Below, one piece after another: positions 13,395 to 20,289 of a DNA stretch of 64,000 nt. Location of the stretch: NCBI RefSeq assembly GCF_004766055.1, contig NZ_SPQR01000007.1, positions 124,001 through 188,000 of the forward strand. The letters are read 5' to 3'. Made by a program: the position numbers and the translations under genes. Below the pieces are notes generated by a model. It worked only from the letters and a program-made list of their open reading frames with translations, did not search any database and had not been told where the DNA came from. Each line of letters begins with the position of its first letter. Positions within the stretch are counted from its first letter, which is position 1. This stretch comes from Desulfosporosinus sp. Sb-LF (GTDB lineage Bacteria > Bacillota > Desulfitobacteriia > Desulfitobacteriales > Desulfitobacteriaceae).

Positions 13395-14336
13395 CTAGCT
13401 GATATCGAGTATGTTCTTTTGGGAATGTTCTGCATTAAGATAACTCATGGCATTATCCCAAAACAATTGCTTTTTGATTTCTTCCCTAAGAGGAAGCTGG
13501 TTTATGGTTTGGATGGCAGCAACCGGAGAGTAGTCCATAACTGGAAAGTCTGTTCCGAAAATAAATTTTTCTGGATAGGATTCTATCGCTTTGAGCCATT
13601 CCTCTTGCATGGGAAAGCGGGGGTTACCTAGCATATAGGCTGTGTCAAGGTAAACGTTAGGATAGTTGGCTGCCAATTTTACAGCTAGAGAAAAATCATT
13701 GGGAAGACCCATGTGTGCAATAGTAACCTTTAAATTCGGGAAGGACCTGAGTACATCGAGGAGTGGCTCAACTCGTGTGTAAGGGGTTTCTACTGGCATC
13801 CCACTTAAATGAAGAATGACTCCCTTACGCCTTTCAATAAGCATTTGATACATACTCCATAAACGTTTATCATTAGCTGCAACTTTTTGGACGAATGTAT
13901 GAATTTTAGCACCCGGAAAATTCCATTCATCGAGAGCTTGACCTAAGATTTCTTCTAGATGTTCGTCATCCTGATGAAGGGCTGCAAATGGATGTAACCA
14001 AGGGTGACTGTCACAAAGTTCTTTGAGCCAAAGGTTAATTCCTGAAGCCATATCTTTTTTATGAACGTATCCTAACACAAAAGCTGATGTCACTCCTATA
14101 GTCTCGAGATATTTTATTAGGTTATCTACGGATTGCCGATAGGGCATCGTCCAACCTTGCTGTACGAACCAGTCTAAAATTGCCCCCATTAAACGATCCG
14201 GAAAAAGATGAATGTGGGCATCGCAGATTTTCTGACGATTATCCAATATATTCCCATTCCTCTGGTCACTTATCACTAATAATCTGTCGTGTGTATGAGT
14301 AATATGACCTACGTCAGCATCTCTTGTAGAATTCAT
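13395..14336 (-). CDS. Amidohydrolase-2 family metal-dependent hydrolase
   Basis: A 313-residue TIM-barrel hydrolase of the amidohydrolase-2 type (family of ACMS decarboxylase and related enzymes). It has the metal motif DAHIHLFPD near residues 40-48, then GAKIHTF, VILHLSGMP (metal His), VTIAHMGLP (metal His) and the C-terminal FGTDFPVMDY with the catalytic Asp. The first 38 residues are not part of the barrel and look unstructured. The start is ATG 14336, with AAAGGAG nine bases upstream; TTG 14339 is an alternative. The substrate is unknown. It is a single-gene unit, convergent with the LysR gene. Confidence 0.85.
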   Translation of the reverse strand: MNSTRDADVGHITHTHDRLLVISDQRNGNILDNRQKICDAHIHLFPDRLMGAILDWFVQQGWTMPYRQSVDNLIKYLETIGVTSAFVLGYVHKKDMASGINLWLKELCDSHPWLHPFAALHQDDEHLEEILGQALDEWNFPGAKIHTFVQKVAANDKRLWSMYQMLIERRKGVILHLSGMPVETPYTRVEPLLDVLRSFPNLKVTIAHMGLPNDFSLAVKLAANYPNVYLDTAYMLGNPRFPMQEEWLKAIESYPEKFIFGTDFPVMDYSPVAAIQTINQLPLREEIKKQLFWDNAMSYLNAEHSQKNILDIS

Positions 14337-14480
14337 CAACTTTTGCTCCTTTCAAAATTGTATTGTACCCCATGCCCTGTTAGGGCACAAACTATGCTCA
14401 AATTGATTATTTATTACTCTAAACTTTTAAGAAACGTAGGATTATTTTTGAATATTTCGACAGTTGTGGACTGAAATCCT

Positions 14481-14491
14481 CCTCTGTCTAT
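14481..14491 (+). repeat. Left copy of an 11-bp inverted repeat flanking the DnaA paralogue
   Basis: CCTCTGTCTAT here is the exact reverse complement of 15529-15539. The two copies bracket the DnaA-like gene. Confidence 0.4.
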
Positions 14492-14555
14492 ACGATAATA
14501 ACATTATATAAGAGTATAAACCTTTGGCAATGAGTTTAATAAAGGAGAGGCGTAC

Positions 14556-15524
14556 TTGAACTGGTTTATTAGTGACTTTAACATTCGGGCACGACGTTTA
14601 ATCGGAAGTTACGATATCAAGAAGGCTCCGGGAGTTACTCTAATTTATGGACCAAATGGAGTAGGGAAATCAGCCATGCTGCGCCAACTTGATCAACGTA
14701 TTGGGCTAAAATCCGGGGGAATTTTTACGGATTCTTTATCCTTTGCTCGTCAGTATGCTTATGCTGCTCAGGAAAATCAGCTGAATGTTTTCAGGCAACG
14801 ATACAGAACGGCACGATTGTTGTTGATCGATGATCTTCAATTTTTAACCGGTAAAGTCAAAACAATCGAAGAACTTCATTATACATATGAATATGTCATT
14901 GAAAATGGGGGTAAGATGGTGATTACCCTTGAAGCCGATCAACCTCAAATCGAATTTCTAGGGGAACGACTCGCCTCGCGTTTTTTAAGTGGGATGGTTG
15001 TATCAATTGATCAACCTCAAAGGAAAGAAATAGAGCGTTTCCTGTATGAATATTGTCACTTGAAGCGCCTTTTCATCGACCAAATGGTCCTAGAGATTAT
15101 CGCGGAGCGGATAGATAATTTAGCAGATGCCATAAAGGTCATTGAGCAATTTGTTCAATTTGCTGAATTACAACAAGACGAATTGAGCTTGTTGTGTTTC
15201 CAAACTTATTGGGAACATGAAAAAAATAGAAAAAAATCGGTAGCTGATCCGTTAAATATTATTCATGTATCTGCCTTGACGATGGAAGTTTCCGTCGAGG
15301 AATTGTTGGGACCGAGTCGAAAGCCGAGGGTCAATGAAGCAAGGCAGTTGACGATTTACACTATGCGGACACTTTGCCAGATTTCTTTTCCTGCAATTGC
15401 GAGTTATTTTAACCGCAAACATTCTACTATAATAGCCTCTTATCAAAAAATGCAAAAAAAAATGCTCATTAACGAGGATTTGAATAAAAAATATTTAATA
15501 ATATTAAAGACATTTAAAGCATAA
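14556..15524 (+). CDS. DnaA paralogue: AAA+ domain plus DnaA domain IV, lacking domains I-II
   Basis: A 322-residue protein. Residues 25-165 are a DnaA-like AAA+ core with Walker A GPNGVGKSA (32-40), Walker B LLLIDDLQFLTGK (88-100) and the box GERLASRFLSG (136-146), which matches DnaA DRLRSRFxxG. Residues 230-305 resemble DnaA domain IV: EARQLTIYTMRTL corresponds to ARQIAMYL, and RKHSTIIASYQKM to the DNA-contact signature RDHTTVIHAxxKI. The N-terminal DnaB/DnaD-binding domain I and linker II of true DnaA are missing. It is longer than Hda because it keeps the DNA-binding domain. The start is TTG 14556, after AAAGGAGAGG. It could control replication initiation or act as a transcription factor; the function is unknown. 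Confidence 0.85.
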   Translation: MNWFISDFNIRARRLIGSYDIKKAPGVTLIYGPNGVGKSAMLRQLDQRIGLKSGGIFTDSLSFARQYAYAAQENQLNVFRQRYRTARLLLIDDLQFLTGKVKTIEELHYTYEYVIENGGKMVITLEADQPQIEFLGERLASRFLSGMVVSIDQPQRKEIERFLYEYCHLKRLFIDQMVLEIIAERIDNLADAIKVIEQFVQFAELQQDELSLLCFQTYWEHEKNRKKSVADPLNIIHVSALTMEVSVEELLGPSRKPRVNEARQLTIYTMRTLCQISFPAIASYFNRKHSTIIASYQKMQKKMLINEDLNKKYLIILKTFKA

Positions 15525-15528
15525 ACTC

Positions 15529-15539
15529 ATAGACAGAGG
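15529..15539 (-). repeat. Right copy of the 11-bp inverted repeat
   Basis: ATAGACAGAGG pairs with 14481-14491 and lies just after the stop of the DnaA-like gene. Confidence 0.4.
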
Positions 15540-15625: not shown

Positions 15626-16594
15626 ATGTCAGGTATAAAGCGGATTGGAGTGCTAACAAGTGGAGGAGATGCTCCGGGGATGAACGCAGCCCTTCGGGCT
15701 GTGGTCCGGAAGGGAATCTACCATGGCCTTGTGGTTTATGGGATAAACCGTGGTTATGAGGGGTTAATACACGGGGAAATTCAAGAAATGAGTTTAGGCT
15801 CTGTTGCGGATATTGTACTTCGCGGAGGGACTATCCTGAAAACTGCTCGCTCCGCAGAAATGCGAACAGTAGAGGGTCAGCTAAAAGCGACAGAGCAGTT
15901 ACATAAGTCGCAAATAGACGCTTTGGTAGTCATCGGAGGAGATGGATCTTTTCGTGGGGCTCAGACTTTAGCGGCACAAGGACTTCAGATTGTGGGGATT
16001 CCGGGAACCATTGACAATGATATCGCTGGTACTGACTTGACGATTGGATTTGATACTGCCACCAATACAGTTGTGGATGCTGTGAGCAAGATTCGGGACA
16101 CCGCGTCTTCTCACGAACGGACCTTCATTGTAGAAGTTATGGGAAGGGATTGTGGAAATATAGCCCTTCAGGCAGGGATTGCGTGTGGAGCTGAATCGAT
16201 TTTAGTGCCTGAAATTCCGTATGATTTGGATGAAATTAGCGATAAATTGAAGCGTGGTCATCAACGTGGGAAGAACCACAGCATAATCCTAGTTGCGGAA
16301 GGCGCGGGAAGCGCTTTTCAAATTGGAGAAGAATTACGATCTCGTTCCGGTTTTGAGACTCGCATCACAATTTTAGGACATTTGCAACGTGGTGGAAACC
16401 CTAGCGCTCTGGATGCTATGATTGCTGCTGGCATGGGAGGGAAAGCAATCGAAATTATTTTAGCCCATGAAACCAGTAAAATGACCGCTTATGTCAATCA
16501 AGTCATTATCTCTACTTCTCTAGATGCTGCTTATGGAAAAGGGCGCCCTTTCAATAGAGAACTTTATGATTTAGCAAATGAACTATCCATTTAG
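15626..16594 (+). CDS. pfkA: ATP-dependent 6-phosphofructokinase
   Basis: A 322-residue glycolytic enzyme (fructose-6-phosphate + ATP to fructose-1,6-bisphosphate). Motifs are LTSGGDAPGMNAALRAVVR, the nucleotide motif VIGGDGSFRGA and the catalytic PGTIDNDIAGTDLTIGFDTA. MGRDCGNIAL and GHLQRGGNPSA follow. The GGDGS form indicates ATP and not PPi as donor (PPi enzymes have GGDD). The start is ATG 15626, with GGAAGGGG eight bases before; ATG 15596 lacks a site. It is followed at 33 bases by pgi, so the two consecutive steps of upper glycolysis are probably one operon. Confidence 0.96.
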   Translation: MSGIKRIGVLTSGGDAPGMNAALRAVVRKGIYHGLVVYGINRGYEGLIHGEIQEMSLGSVADIVLRGGTILKTARSAEMRTVEGQLKATEQLHKSQIDALVVIGGDGSFRGAQTLAAQGLQIVGIPGTIDNDIAGTDLTIGFDTATNTVVDAVSKIRDTASSHERTFIVEVMGRDCGNIALQAGIACGAESILVPEIPYDLDEISDKLKRGHQRGKNHSIILVAEGAGSAFQIGEELRSRSGFETRITILGHLQRGGNPSALDAMIAAGMGGKAIEIILAHETSKMTAYVNQVIISTSLDAAYGKGRPFNRELYDLANELSI

Positions 16595-16627
16595 GGAAGT
16601 CGAAATTAGGAGATGAGGGTGAATTTA

Positions 16628-18052
16628 ATGGAAAACCGAGTAAGATCTGGAATAACAATTGATTATATGGGAATGATGCAAAGCTCGCAAAACCAGAATG
16701 GATTTACAAAGGAGGAACTACAGAACCTACAAGAAGCGTTGAATGAAGCCCAGACTACCCTCTCCACTCGATGGAAGGCGGGAGAAATCGATTTCTCAAA
16801 GCTCTTAGATCCAATAAAAACTCAAATACCAGAAATTATAGAGTATGCAAATTCTGTCGCATCTAACTTTGAAAATTTTGTAGTTTTAGGAATTGGTGGA
16901 TCGGCACTCGGACCCTTGGCTGTTCACCAAGCACTAAACCATTACTATTATAACGAACTTTCTCCTGAGAAGCGCGGTCATCGTCCCCGCTTTTATGTCA
17001 TGGATAATATTGATCCAGTACGGTTTAACGAGTTGTTACAAATCCTTGATCCTTCTAAGACCCTCTTTAATGTAATTTCAAAATCAGGTAATACATCGGA
17101 AACTATGGCTCAGTTTCTGATTGTTCGAGATACCTTGCGTAGGGTATGCGGAGAGAACTACGCTCAACATATTGTTGTGACCACGGATAAAGAAAAAGGA
17201 AATCTTCTGCCGATTGCCCTCAAGGAAGGCTATCATAGGTTTGTGGTCCCGACGGGAATAGGTGGGCGCTTTTCAGAACTGACGCCCGTGGGGTTGCTAG
17301 CAGCTGCCATCTGTGGAATTGATGTTAATCAACTTATGGAAGGCGCCTTGGAGATGGATCAGTGGATTCGTAAGACAAGCGGGGTATTCTCTAACCCCGC
17401 ACAATTGCGTGCCGCACTTGCTCATTTGTCATGGCAAAAAGGAAAAAATATCTCGGTATTTATGCCCTATGCTGATGGGTTGAAAACAATGGCTGACTGG
17501 TATGCCCAATTATGGGCGGAAAGCTTGGGGAAACGAAATGATCGCCAGGGGAAGGTTGTTAACATTGGACAGACACCTGTAAAAGCGCTGGGGGTTACGG
17601 ACCAACATTCTCAAGTTCAATTATTTGTCGAAGGCCCTGATGATAAGGTCATTACGTTTGTGGCAGTTGAAAAATTTGCGGAAACTCAAGAGATCCCGGT
17701 AGATTTAGAATTGCCTGAGGATATCCAGTTCTTGGGGGGGCGCACTTTAGCAGAATTATTGTTTGCGGAGCAAAAAGCAACCGAATACGCCCTGACTTTG
17801 GCAGGGCGGCAACACCAAAAGATTATTCTTCCCTACTTGGATGCTTATAACGTAGGGCAATTACTTCTCCTGCTTGAGTGGGAGACGGCGTATATGGGTG
17901 AATTACTGAATATTAATGCCTTCGATCAACCAGGGGTTGAGGAAGGGAAGAATGGGACATACGCCTTAATGGGACGTAAAGGGTATGAAACGAGGAGACA
18001 AGAAATCGAGGAATATGGAAAAACTCAGTATAGTTTAACGAAAGAACTATAG
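16628..18052 (+). CDS. pgi: Glucose-6-phosphate isomerase
   Basis: A 474-residue enzyme interconverting glucose-6-phosphate and fructose-6-phosphate. It has two SIS-type sugar-binding folds. Motifs are VLGIGGSALGPLA, FNVISKSGNTSETMAQ, GIGGRFSELTPVG, WAESLGKR and DQHSQVQLFVEGP with the catalytic His. The start is ATG 16628, since GAGGGTG lies six bases upstream; ATG 16613 overlaps the ribosome region and has no spacing. It is downstream of pfkA and ends at a strong hairpin. Length is usual for bacterial Pgi. Confidence 0.95.
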   Translation: MENRVRSGITIDYMGMMQSSQNQNGFTKEELQNLQEALNEAQTTLSTRWKAGEIDFSKLLDPIKTQIPEIIEYANSVASNFENFVVLGIGGSALGPLAVHQALNHYYYNELSPEKRGHRPRFYVMDNIDPVRFNELLQILDPSKTLFNVISKSGNTSETMAQFLIVRDTLRRVCGENYAQHIVVTTDKEKGNLLPIALKEGYHRFVVPTGIGGRFSELTPVGLLAAAICGIDVNQLMEGALEMDQWIRKTSGVFSNPAQLRAALAHLSWQKGKNISVFMPYADGLKTMADWYAQLWAESLGKRNDRQGKVVNIGQTPVKALGVTDQHSQVQLFVEGPDDKVITFVAVEKFAETQEIPVDLELPEDIQFLGGRTLAELLFAEQKATEYALTLAGRQHQKIILPYLDAYNVGQLLLLLEWETAYMGELLNINAFDQPGVEEGKNGTYALMGRKGYETRRQEIEEYGKTQYSLTKEL

Positions 18053-18078: not shown

Positions 18079-18122
18079 AACCTCCACTAATATTGGTAAA
18101 CAGTATTAGTGGAGGTTGTTTA
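18079..18122 (+). terminator. Hairpin after pgi
   Basis: Perfect 14-bp stem (18079-18092 with 18104-18117) and an 11-base loop, followed by GTTTATTTG. It probably ends the pfkA-pgi unit and lies upstream of the FtsA-like gene. Confidence 0.7.
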
Positions 18123-18183
18123 TTTGTATCGAGGAGGATTTTACATAAAAAAGGTCGAATTTACTCAAAGAGAGGTGAAACAA

Positions 18184-20289
18184 GTGGAACCTATTTTCGC
18201 GTTAGATATTGGAACTCGTATGGTTATGGGGCTGGTAATGACCAAGAACAAAGAACGAGATTATGAAATTTTGGCCAGCGCTCGAACGGAACATCGGCAG
18301 CGCGCTATGTATGATGGGCAAGTTCATGATGTGGATGAAGTTGCCCAGGCAGTTATTAAGGTCAAAGAAATTCTGGAAAAAAAATTAGGGTTTCCCTTAA
18401 AACAGGTTGCAGTGGCAGCAGCTGGTCGAGCGTTGAGAACTGAAATAGCTTTTGCTGAACATAAGGAATTACTTCCAGTTCGTTGGGAACGGGATGACGT
18501 ATTAGCAATGGAAATGGAAGCAGTTCATCAAGCGCTTCGTCAGCTGCAATCATCAACACACAATGATACCCAAAGCTATCATTGTGTGGGGTTCAACACT
18601 ATAGCCCAGTGGAATGAGGGAGAAGAAATTGCTAATCTAATCGGGCAGCGCGGGAGAGTGGCTAAGGTATCGGTGATTGCGACATTTTTGCCACGAACAG
18701 TCGTTGATGGCTTGGTTGCGGTCTTGGGCCGTGTTGACCTAGAGATGATCAGTTTGACATTGGAACCGATTGCCGCTGGACAAGCTGCCATTCCGGCGAA
18801 TATGAGACGTCTAAATCTCGCATTGGTTGATGTTGGAGCAGGAACCGCGGATATTGCCTTGACTCGGTATGGGACTTTTTTTGCCTATGGAATGGTCCCT
18901 ATGGCAGGAGATGAGGTCACCGAGGCAATCTGCGCGCAGTATCTTCTTGATTTTAAGGTAGGAGAAAAAGTAAAACGAGACCTAAATACGAAGGCCAAGC
19001 TGAACTTCACTGATTTTCTTGGAACTAAAGTCGTTGTGAATAAAGAAGACGTATTGAGTGTCATACAACCTGTGGTTGGAACGTTAGCGGAGCGAATTTC
19101 AAAGGAGATTGTTAGCCTCAATAATGACATCCCACAAGCTATTATTCTCATTGGTGGAGGAAGCTTAACCCCAATGCTTTCTGAAATGTTGGCTGAGACT
19201 ATGGGAATTCCTCAGAATAGAGTGGGAGTTCAAGTCAGAGAACGGCTAGGGGACATTCTTGGGGAGAAAAACTTGAAGGGCCCGGAAAGCATTACTCCTA
19301 TCGGAATTGGAATCGCTGCGATCGAGGGAAAGGGGCTACAGTATTATACTGTAGCAGTAAATAATACACCTGTGCCAATTTTTGAATTACAGTTAACAAC
19401 GGTTGCCGAAGCTTTACTTGCTGCGGGGATACAGCCACGCTCATTTTTTGGTAGGCCTGGAGCGGCGTTAACATTTGAATGGAATTGCGAAATGCGAGTT
19501 ATTAAGGGGACTATGGGAAGCCCCGCCCTCTTATTCGTCAATGGCGAGCTTGGAAAATTAGATCAAGCGTTAAAAGCGGGGGATGAAATCACCTTTACTT
19601 CAGGTGAACCAGGTAGAGATGCCCAGGTATGCTTCGAAGAGATGTTACCTTCTCAAAATCCGAAATGGATTTTCTGGAATGGCCAACGAGAGAAATATGC
19701 CACGCAGGTCTTTGTAAATCATCAGTTAGTAAGCGAGACAGATCAAATTCTTGATGGATATAAAATTACGTACATTCCCAATGATGATTTAACCAATCTC
19801 CTAAAGCAAAAGGGCTTTGACTCAAAAAAAAATGAAGAGCTACTGATTCGTATCAATGGAGAGACTCGTTCGCTTGACTTGAAACATGAGATTTTGGTTA
19901 ATGGCAGTGGGGTAGAGGGTAACTGTATCATCCGTGAGGGAGATTCGATAGAGGTTCGTACAAGGCAGATCACGGTGGGTGAGCTGAAGCTTCAGCCCAG
20001 GCCTATGATTTTCAGCGTAAACGGAGTAGCACTTGAATACCCTCCTCAAGAAACCATCATTTTGTTTCGAGGAAGACCTGTGTCTGAAGATCTACTCCTT
20101 AAGGATGGAATGGACCTTAGGGTTGATGGGTATAAGCAAATGCCGATTCTTTCAGATCTTTTGCCCTATGTTAAGTTTCCAGATGAGCTAGTTCCAGGAT
20201 CTTCGTTGAAACTACGTGTCAATGGCCAAGAAGCTGAATTCACAACGGTTTTACATCCAGGTGACCGCTTAACTGCTACGTTTCGTTAA
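18184..20289 (+). CDS. FtsA-like actin-fold ATPase with C-terminal beta-grasp-like modules
   Basis: A 701-residue protein. Residues 1-380 are an FtsA/PilM-type actin-fold ATPase. Phosphate-1 is FALDIGTRMVMGLV (5-18), phosphate-2 is ALVDVGAGTADIALTRYG (around 215), and the adenosine motif is AIILIGGGSLTPML (around 320). An FtsA-like 1C region is present (QVAVAAAGRALRTE). After about residue 405 come four or five short modules with the pattern V-N-G then L-x-x-G-D/M-x-I (LLFVNGELGKLDQAL..AGDEITF, VFVNHQLVSETDQIL, LKLRVNGQEA..HPGDRL), resembling ThiS/MoaD/SLBB beta-grasp folds. The start GTG 18184 follows GAGAGGTG; the open frame extends upstream into the hairpin. It is not ordinary FtsA, which is about 420 residues. 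The role is unknown. Confidence 0.78.
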   Translation: MEPIFALDIGTRMVMGLVMTKNKERDYEILASARTEHRQRAMYDGQVHDVDEVAQAVIKVKEILEKKLGFPLKQVAVAAAGRALRTEIAFAEHKELLPVRWERDDVLAMEMEAVHQALRQLQSSTHNDTQSYHCVGFNTIAQWNEGEEIANLIGQRGRVAKVSVIATFLPRTVVDGLVAVLGRVDLEMISLTLEPIAAGQAAIPANMRRLNLALVDVGAGTADIALTRYGTFFAYGMVPMAGDEVTEAICAQYLLDFKVGEKVKRDLNTKAKLNFTDFLGTKVVVNKEDVLSVIQPVVGTLAERISKEIVSLNNDIPQAIILIGGGSLTPMLSEMLAETMGIPQNRVGVQVRERLGDILGEKNLKGPESITPIGIGIAAIEGKGLQYYTVAVNNTPVPIFELQLTTVAEALLAAGIQPRSFFGRPGAALTFEWNCEMRVIKGTMGSPALLFVNGELGKLDQALKAGDEITFTSGEPGRDAQVCFEEMLPSQNPKWIFWNGQREKYATQVFVNHQLVSETDQILDGYKITYIPNDDLTNLLKQKGFDSKKNEELLIRINGETRSLDLKHEILVNGSGVEGNCIIREGDSIEVRTRQITVGELKLQPRPMIFSVNGVALEYPPQETIILFRGRPVSEDLLLKDGMDLRVDGYKQMPILSDLLPYVKFPDELVPGSSLKLRVNGQEAEFTTVLHPGDRLTATFR

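Follow-up and report, generated by a model that had tools for sequence, protein, structure and literature searches.

The window, a 64,000-nt stretch of a contig of Desulfosporosinus sp. Sb-LF, carries a gene for a short DnaA paralogue, followed on the same strand by pfkA and a glucose-6-phosphate isomerase (pgi-like) gene (Table 1). The paralogue gene ends 101 nt before the pfkA ATG at 15626, and the isomerase gene is likely to belong to the same transcription unit as pfkA. The neighbours that could be named in the window encode a cyclophilin, a LysR-type protein, an amidohydrolase, PfkA, the Pgi-like protein and an actin-fold ATPase; no partition or transfer genes, as in a plasmid setting, are among them. 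The amidohydrolase gene (Amidohydro_2; 13395–14339, minus strand) separates the LysR-type gene from the paralogue and fell into no cluster of three or more when 41 loci were compared. The actin-fold-like protein (726 aa; 18109–20289, plus strand), encoded after pgi, has weak PilM, MreB and FtsA matches, and its cluster is present in 29 of the 41 loci.

Table 1. Features of the paralogue locus in window coordinates.
Feature	Position	Strand	Basis
Inverted-repeat arm 1, judged chance	14481..14491	.	Relatives, genome-wide and random-window counts
Ribosome-binding site AAAGGAGAG	14541..14549	+	Sequence; purine-rich site at equivalent place in most relatives
Short DnaA paralogue, 322 aa, TTG start	14556..15524	+	ORF, Pfam, NCBIfam, start comparison
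DnaA AAA+ domain, aa 28–149	14637..15002	+	Pfam Bac_DnaA, E 3e-19
Walker A, G32 to S39, lysine K38	14649..14672	+	Lysine kept in 28/28 paralogues
Walker B D92, D93	14829..14834	+	D92 kept in 28/28; D93 position Asp in 10/28
Arginine-finger equivalent R142 (E. coli R285)	14979..14981	+	Arg in 25/28
DnaA domain IV, aa 234–298	15255..15449	+	Pfam Bac_DnaA_C, E 1.7e-15
Inverted-repeat arm 2, judged chance	15529..15539	.	Relatives, genome-wide and random-window counts
pfkA, ATP-dependent 6-phosphofructokinase, directly downstream of paralogue	15626..16594	+	NCBIfam TIGR02482 above cut-off; adjacency in relatives
Glucose-6-phosphate isomerase (pgi-like) gene	16613..18052	+	NCBIfam matches, all below listed cut-offs

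The domain architecture agrees with the earlier note, which had described a DnaA paralogue without domains I and II that keeps the AAA+ core and a domain IV-like C-terminal end and has no N-terminal helicase-binding domain. Both Pfam matches exceed their curated cut-offs (Bac_DnaA, 70.2 bits versus 23; Bac_DnaA_C, 57.2 bits versus 31.5), the motifs EARQLTIYTMRTL and RKHSTIIASYQKM fall inside domain IV, and DnaA_N (domain I) gives no match at E values up to 10. The NCBIfam DnaA model TIGR00362 covers aa 28–317 with 167.9 bits, under its equivalog cut-off of 343.9, and the Hda model reaches 34.4 bits, far below its cut-off of 194.8. Loss of domain I through a mis-set start was rejected, since there is no in-frame start codon 5′ of the TTG and the frame, 334 codons from stop to stop, is too short; most relatives' paralogues start at the residue equivalent to this TTG.

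The structure model, built from nine sequences, has a mean pLDDT of 57, with residues 1–72 and 82–154 below 50; because of the low confidence of the AAA+ half, it was used for domain IV only. The predicted domain IV takes the DnaA domain IV fold, aligning to 3pvp and 1j1v over 91–92 columns (RMSD 1.1; TM 0.90–0.91 by target length).

A second, full-length dnaA is located on contig 2 of the same genome (G000:C2:318860, a 482-codon frame). The ORF after it reads, by eye, like dnaN, and its 3.5-kb locus has 12 DnaA-box-like sites at ≤1 mismatch. The earlier note had named two outcomes that would speak against its reading, a C-terminal domain of another type and a lone DnaA gene; domain IV is of DnaA type, and the paralogue is not the genome's sole DnaA. 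A separate DnaI-like gene, also read by eye, lies at C7:261416.

The gene had also been described as framed by an 11-bp inverted repeat. The repeat is present, its arms matching at 11 of 11 positions, but a functional frame was not borne out: neither arm occurs at ≤1 mismatch in the loci of eight relatives (0/8; 8.6–9.0 kb each). The window holds 38 inverted 11-mer pairs spaced 20–1100 nt apart, versus a mean of 26.1 (range 13–38) in 10 random Markov-1 windows; 38 was reached in one of these as well. A pair common to two 100-nt flanks 1 kb apart arose in 22 of 5960 random trials, so that chance would give one for the paralogue gene alone in about 0.4% of cases; choice from the whole window was possible, though. 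Genome-wide, the arm was counted 59 times at ≤1 mismatch versus 49 for the reversed control. Because of its absence from the relatives, the near-chance pair counts and a genome count close to the control, the repeat was discarded as an operator or element end.

In what follows, family 1 is the family of the window's genome, families 2 and 3 are other families of the same order and f4 comprises class neighbours. The short gene is present in 44/45 family 1 genomes (in 42 nearly at full length, in two as fragments at contig edges), and a short second DnaA match, in open frames of 204–396 codons, in 25/25 family 2 genomes; 69 of the 70 genomes of the two families thus carry a paralogue. None was found in the three family 3 genomes, and the four f4 genomes gave no comparable second match. 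The only family 1 genome without the paralogue, G033, has no strong pfkA match either, which may mean that its assembly does not cover the locus. All frames are open in the 37 family 1 and family 2 loci extracted, two of which are the contig-edge fragments, and dN/dS is 0.09–0.30 in 13/13 pairs (nine family 1, four family 2), which indicates purifying selection.

The phylum was surveyed with 398 genomes, 12 of them from this order, with five candidates scored per genome, so that weak second copies could escape. Five genomes outside the order had a second DnaA match at E ≤ 1e-20, and these were judged to be other things. Those of G202, G227, G101 and G401 were rejected as members of the paralogue family, being by alignment DnaA-like proteins without domain IV and having no pfkA in the stretch; DnaA_N was found in two of the three that were scanned with Pfam. 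The matches in G120 look like pieces of one dnaA. Two more weak DnaA matches (E about 1e-6) occur in G366. Three genomes of the phylum have extra DnaAs with the reverse loss, an N-terminal part and AAA+ domain and no domain IV (L110:1638-2666, L111:4651-5721 and L112:4725-5759; read by alignment, with Pfam for L111 and L112), and these branch with full-length DnaAs. A 302-aa DnaA-type AAA+ protein of G401 (L113:4840-5745) has neither DnaA_N nor domain IV according to Pfam.

The short proteins of families 1 and 2 group in a single clade that excludes the full-length DnaAs (support 100/100). The first tree was built without seven family 2 full-length DnaAs; the clade holds in the second, which includes them (SH-aLRT 100). 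Its stem is long, so its branching point within the DnaA tree was not placed. The paralogue may have been gained in the common ancestor of families 1 and 2 or lost in family 3. Family 2 loci were taken from 16/25 genomes, with G453 added later. The trees and residue counts use 15/21 family 1 rows (L050, L053, L055 and L061 omitted as near kin, L058 and L059 as fragments) and 13/16 family 2 rows (L096, L099 and L101 omitted as near kin).

pfkA lies inside the stretch fetched for 34 loci. In 28 of these it starts −17 to 134 nt (approximate values) from the paralogue end on the same strand, and in the other six it is 1.5–2.7 kb downstream, again on the same strand. The gap is below zero in eight of the 28 loci, four of them from one genus, which suggests translational coupling of the two genes there. 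Two loci have no pfkA in the stretch: L044, at a contig end, and L058 of G043, where a pgi-like cluster follows. In the family 3 genome G320, a glucokinase gene precedes pfkA.

Residues were counted in 28 paralogues (15 of family 1 and 13 of family 2) with E. coli DnaA as the numbering ruler. The equivalents of K178, the ATP-binding lysine, of D235, the first Walker B Asp, and of R227 are kept in 28/28; K243 is kept in 26/28 (Arg in the remaining two), R281 in 21/28, and the L290 position is Leu in 16/28. D236 and D269 are the second Walker B Asp and the sensor I Asp of DnaA. The former is kept in 10/28 and the latter in 0/28, Glu taking its place in 7 of the 15 family 1 rows, the window's included. 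The sensor II Arg, R334, is found in 3/28 (Lys in 11/28), in a column that adjoins an alignment gap. Val or Ile occupies position 211 in 2/28 paralogues versus 38/38 full-length DnaAs, a comparison set in which two of the 21 phylum loci (L077 and L082) were missed by the motif filter, and the hydrophobic H-motif residue of single-strand binding is mostly replaced by a small one. Position 245 in the B motif is basic (Lys or Arg) in 21/28, so single-strand binding by the paralogue is possible. The window protein retains the second Walker B Asp and has E126 at sensor I and A190 at sensor II. According to passages of PMC5742627, R227, K243, R281, R285 and L290 serve DnaA–DnaA contacts, R334 takes part in ATP hydrolysis and is not required for initiation complexes, and V211 and R245 contact the single-stranded origin. 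Judged by these residues, the paralogue is a protein with DnaA–DnaA contacts largely kept and catalysis mostly replaced, some of the changes being conservative; it is probably impaired in hydrolysis.

Domain IV differs between the two families. In the window protein R255, R263 and H289 are kept and K288 replaces the Asp of DnaA. Across family 1 the equivalents of R399 (14/15), R407 (15/15) and H434 (15/15) are kept, and those of D433 (0/15), T435 (2/15; Ser in seven), T436 (4/15) and H439 (0/15) are lost. R399 and the helix 434–451 bind the DnaA box, as stated in passages of PMC5742627; by its residues, family 1 domain IV is one with the minor-groove arginine retained and the major-groove helix altered. 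In family 2, H434 is kept in 0/13 and R399 in 3/13 (Lys in eight). Pfam scans of five family 2 proteins gave two domain IV matches that pass the cut-off (3.4e-10 and 1.6e-11), one below it (0.0031) and none in the other two. The G407 paralogue (family 2, one contig) has 204 aa and ends about 42 nt from pfkA, which leaves no room for domain IV; it is the only form without this domain among those inspected. Since purifying selection still acts on the gene although family 2 has an eroded domain IV or none, the AAA+ part should be the shared activity, and DnaA-box-type binding is, from these sequences, unlikely to be common to the paralogues. This natural series (domain IV present, eroded, AAA+ only) shows which part of the protein matters. 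A second short frame of 207 codons with the AAA+ part only, G449:C267:8774-9271 (minus strand), may lack domain IV or be a contig-edge fragment. In G452, a third DnaA-type match (C42:27366-28334, minus strand) lies in a 663-codon open frame.

The paralogue resembles DnaA in its AAA+ core with initiator-type helices, its domain IV fold, its Walker A motif and its contact residues; it differs in having neither domain I nor II, in the replacement of catalytic and several DnaA-box contact residues, in its score below the equivalog cut-off and in the presence of another dnaA. It shares membership of the initiator clade of AAA+ proteins with DnaC/DnaI, and the PHROG ‘DnaC-like helicase loader’ matches aa 11–152 (E 8.8e-9). 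However, about 27 residues precede its first AAA+ match, so the N-terminal helicase-binding domain of DnaI/DnaC type is absent; the paralogue has domain IV, and the DnaI-like gene is a separate one. The DnaA-like proteins of Rickettsia plasmids, as presented in passages of PMC1800911, likewise come in addition to a normal dnaA, whereas the present gene is chromosomal, usually beside pfkA and family-wide. DnaA and Hda are already known. In the open-licence literature, among the matches listed, no description or function was found for a pfkA-linked DnaA paralogue without domains I–II and with replaced catalytic residues.

The mostly changed catalysis, the kept contacts and the pfkA adjacency suggest a brake on replication initiation, or a coupling of it to metabolism, of a kind not described before. 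The reading preferred here, held tentatively and short of an even chance, is that of a DnaA-derived regulatory AAA+ subunit, which would bind ATP, hydrolyse it poorly or not at all and take part in DnaA-type assemblies, where it would most likely restrain DnaA in a manner linked to the expression of glycolytic genes. It is adopted because the contacts are kept while D269 (0/28), R334 (3/28), D236 (10/28) and position 211 are changed; because the AAA+ part persists where domain IV is eroded or lost; and because the gene is under purifying selection, present in 44/45 and 25/25 genomes and adjacent to pfkA in 28/34 loci. The paralogue could dock onto ATP-DnaA, or onto itself, through its AAA+ faces. 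Having neither domain I nor the H motif, it would cap or poison the filaments that DnaA builds at oriC or at its other sites. Co-production with PfkA would make its amount track the expression of glycolytic genes and so couple initiation to carbon flow; domain IV may help to place it on DNA in some species and be dispensable in others. For E. coli and B. subtilis, a link of central carbon metabolism to DnaA has already been put forward (PMC5407757). The paralogue before pfkA is a concrete candidate gene for the open question of how bacteria couple the start of replication to their carbon supply.

Several points weaken the regulatory-subunit reading. Some of the sensor I and II changes are conservative, the window protein keeps the D236 equivalent and the B motif is mostly basic; L290 is Leu in only 16/28 and R285 is missing in 3/28; and the kept contacts could serve self-assembly only. 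The brake is weakened by YabA, a known brake, which is already present in 69/73 genomes of the order (46/46 of the better ones). The argument that the paralogue stands in for absent YabA was therefore rejected; a paralogue brake would add to YabA, with no gap to fill. The glycolysis link is weakened by the six loci with pfkA 1.5–2.7 kb away and by G043, where the pgi-like cluster follows.

In the first alternative, a less likely one, ATP-bound self-assemblies of the paralogue, placed by a domain IV of changed specificity, would act as a DNA-binding regulator of its own pfkA (pgi) unit and switch the glycolytic genes on or off. Its position directly upstream of pfkA is as expected, and a family 1 domain IV that keeps R399, R407 and H434 but not D433 fits altered specificity. 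However, H434 is lost throughout family 2 and one genome has no domain IV. A scan of the 250 nt upstream of the paralogue in 40 loci (L058, L059 and L045 offered 2, 0 and 179 nt) gave no canonical DnaA box at ≤1 mismatch, and the flanks of the window paralogue gave none at ≤2 mismatches. The positive control, the 3.5-kb dnaA locus, gave 12 sites, and autoregulation via canonical DnaA boxes was rejected. An alignment of nine genomes, inspected by eye, had no obvious conserved upstream block besides the ribosome-binding site.

A bolder form of the regulatory-subunit reading seems rather unlikely: a DnaA look-alike, locked with ATP and made along with phosphofructokinase, would cap DnaA filaments as a dedicated glycolysis–replication link in the order, with family 2, including the AAA+-only form, representing an Hda-like inhibitor made independently from a DnaA duplicate.

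In the second alternative, which is rather unlikely, the paralogue would be an inactivator in the manner of E. coli Hda, its arginine finger completing the ATP site of DnaA and stimulating DnaA ATP hydrolysis. Like Hda, it is a short DnaA-type AAA+ protein with an arginine finger (25/28), and one form, that of G407, consists of the AAA+ part only. However, the Hda model stays far under its cut-off, most paralogues, the window protein included, have domain IV, and the gene is usually beside pfkA, unlike that of Hda. An N-terminal clamp-binding motif was not found either; a loose pattern, which we take to represent it, occurs in the first 40 residues of 6/28 paralogues, always in the strand before Walker A. 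Hda itself is an AAA+ inactivator of DnaA, according to passages of PMC5742627.

A decaying duplicate or plasmid-derived initiator without present function, which the long branch and the DnaA-like proteins of Rickettsia plasmids (passages of PMC1800911) might suggest, is highly improbable given the open frames in 37 loci (two of them fragments), the low dN/dS, the presence in 69/70 genomes and chromosomal neighbours such as the pfkA, pgi-like and LysR genes.

The paralogue is also a caution that a DnaA match need not mean an initiator. In G132, an f4 genome that has no paralogue, the gene order is dnaE-accD-accA-pfkA-pyk (L135), so that here, too, pfkA is paired with a replication gene.
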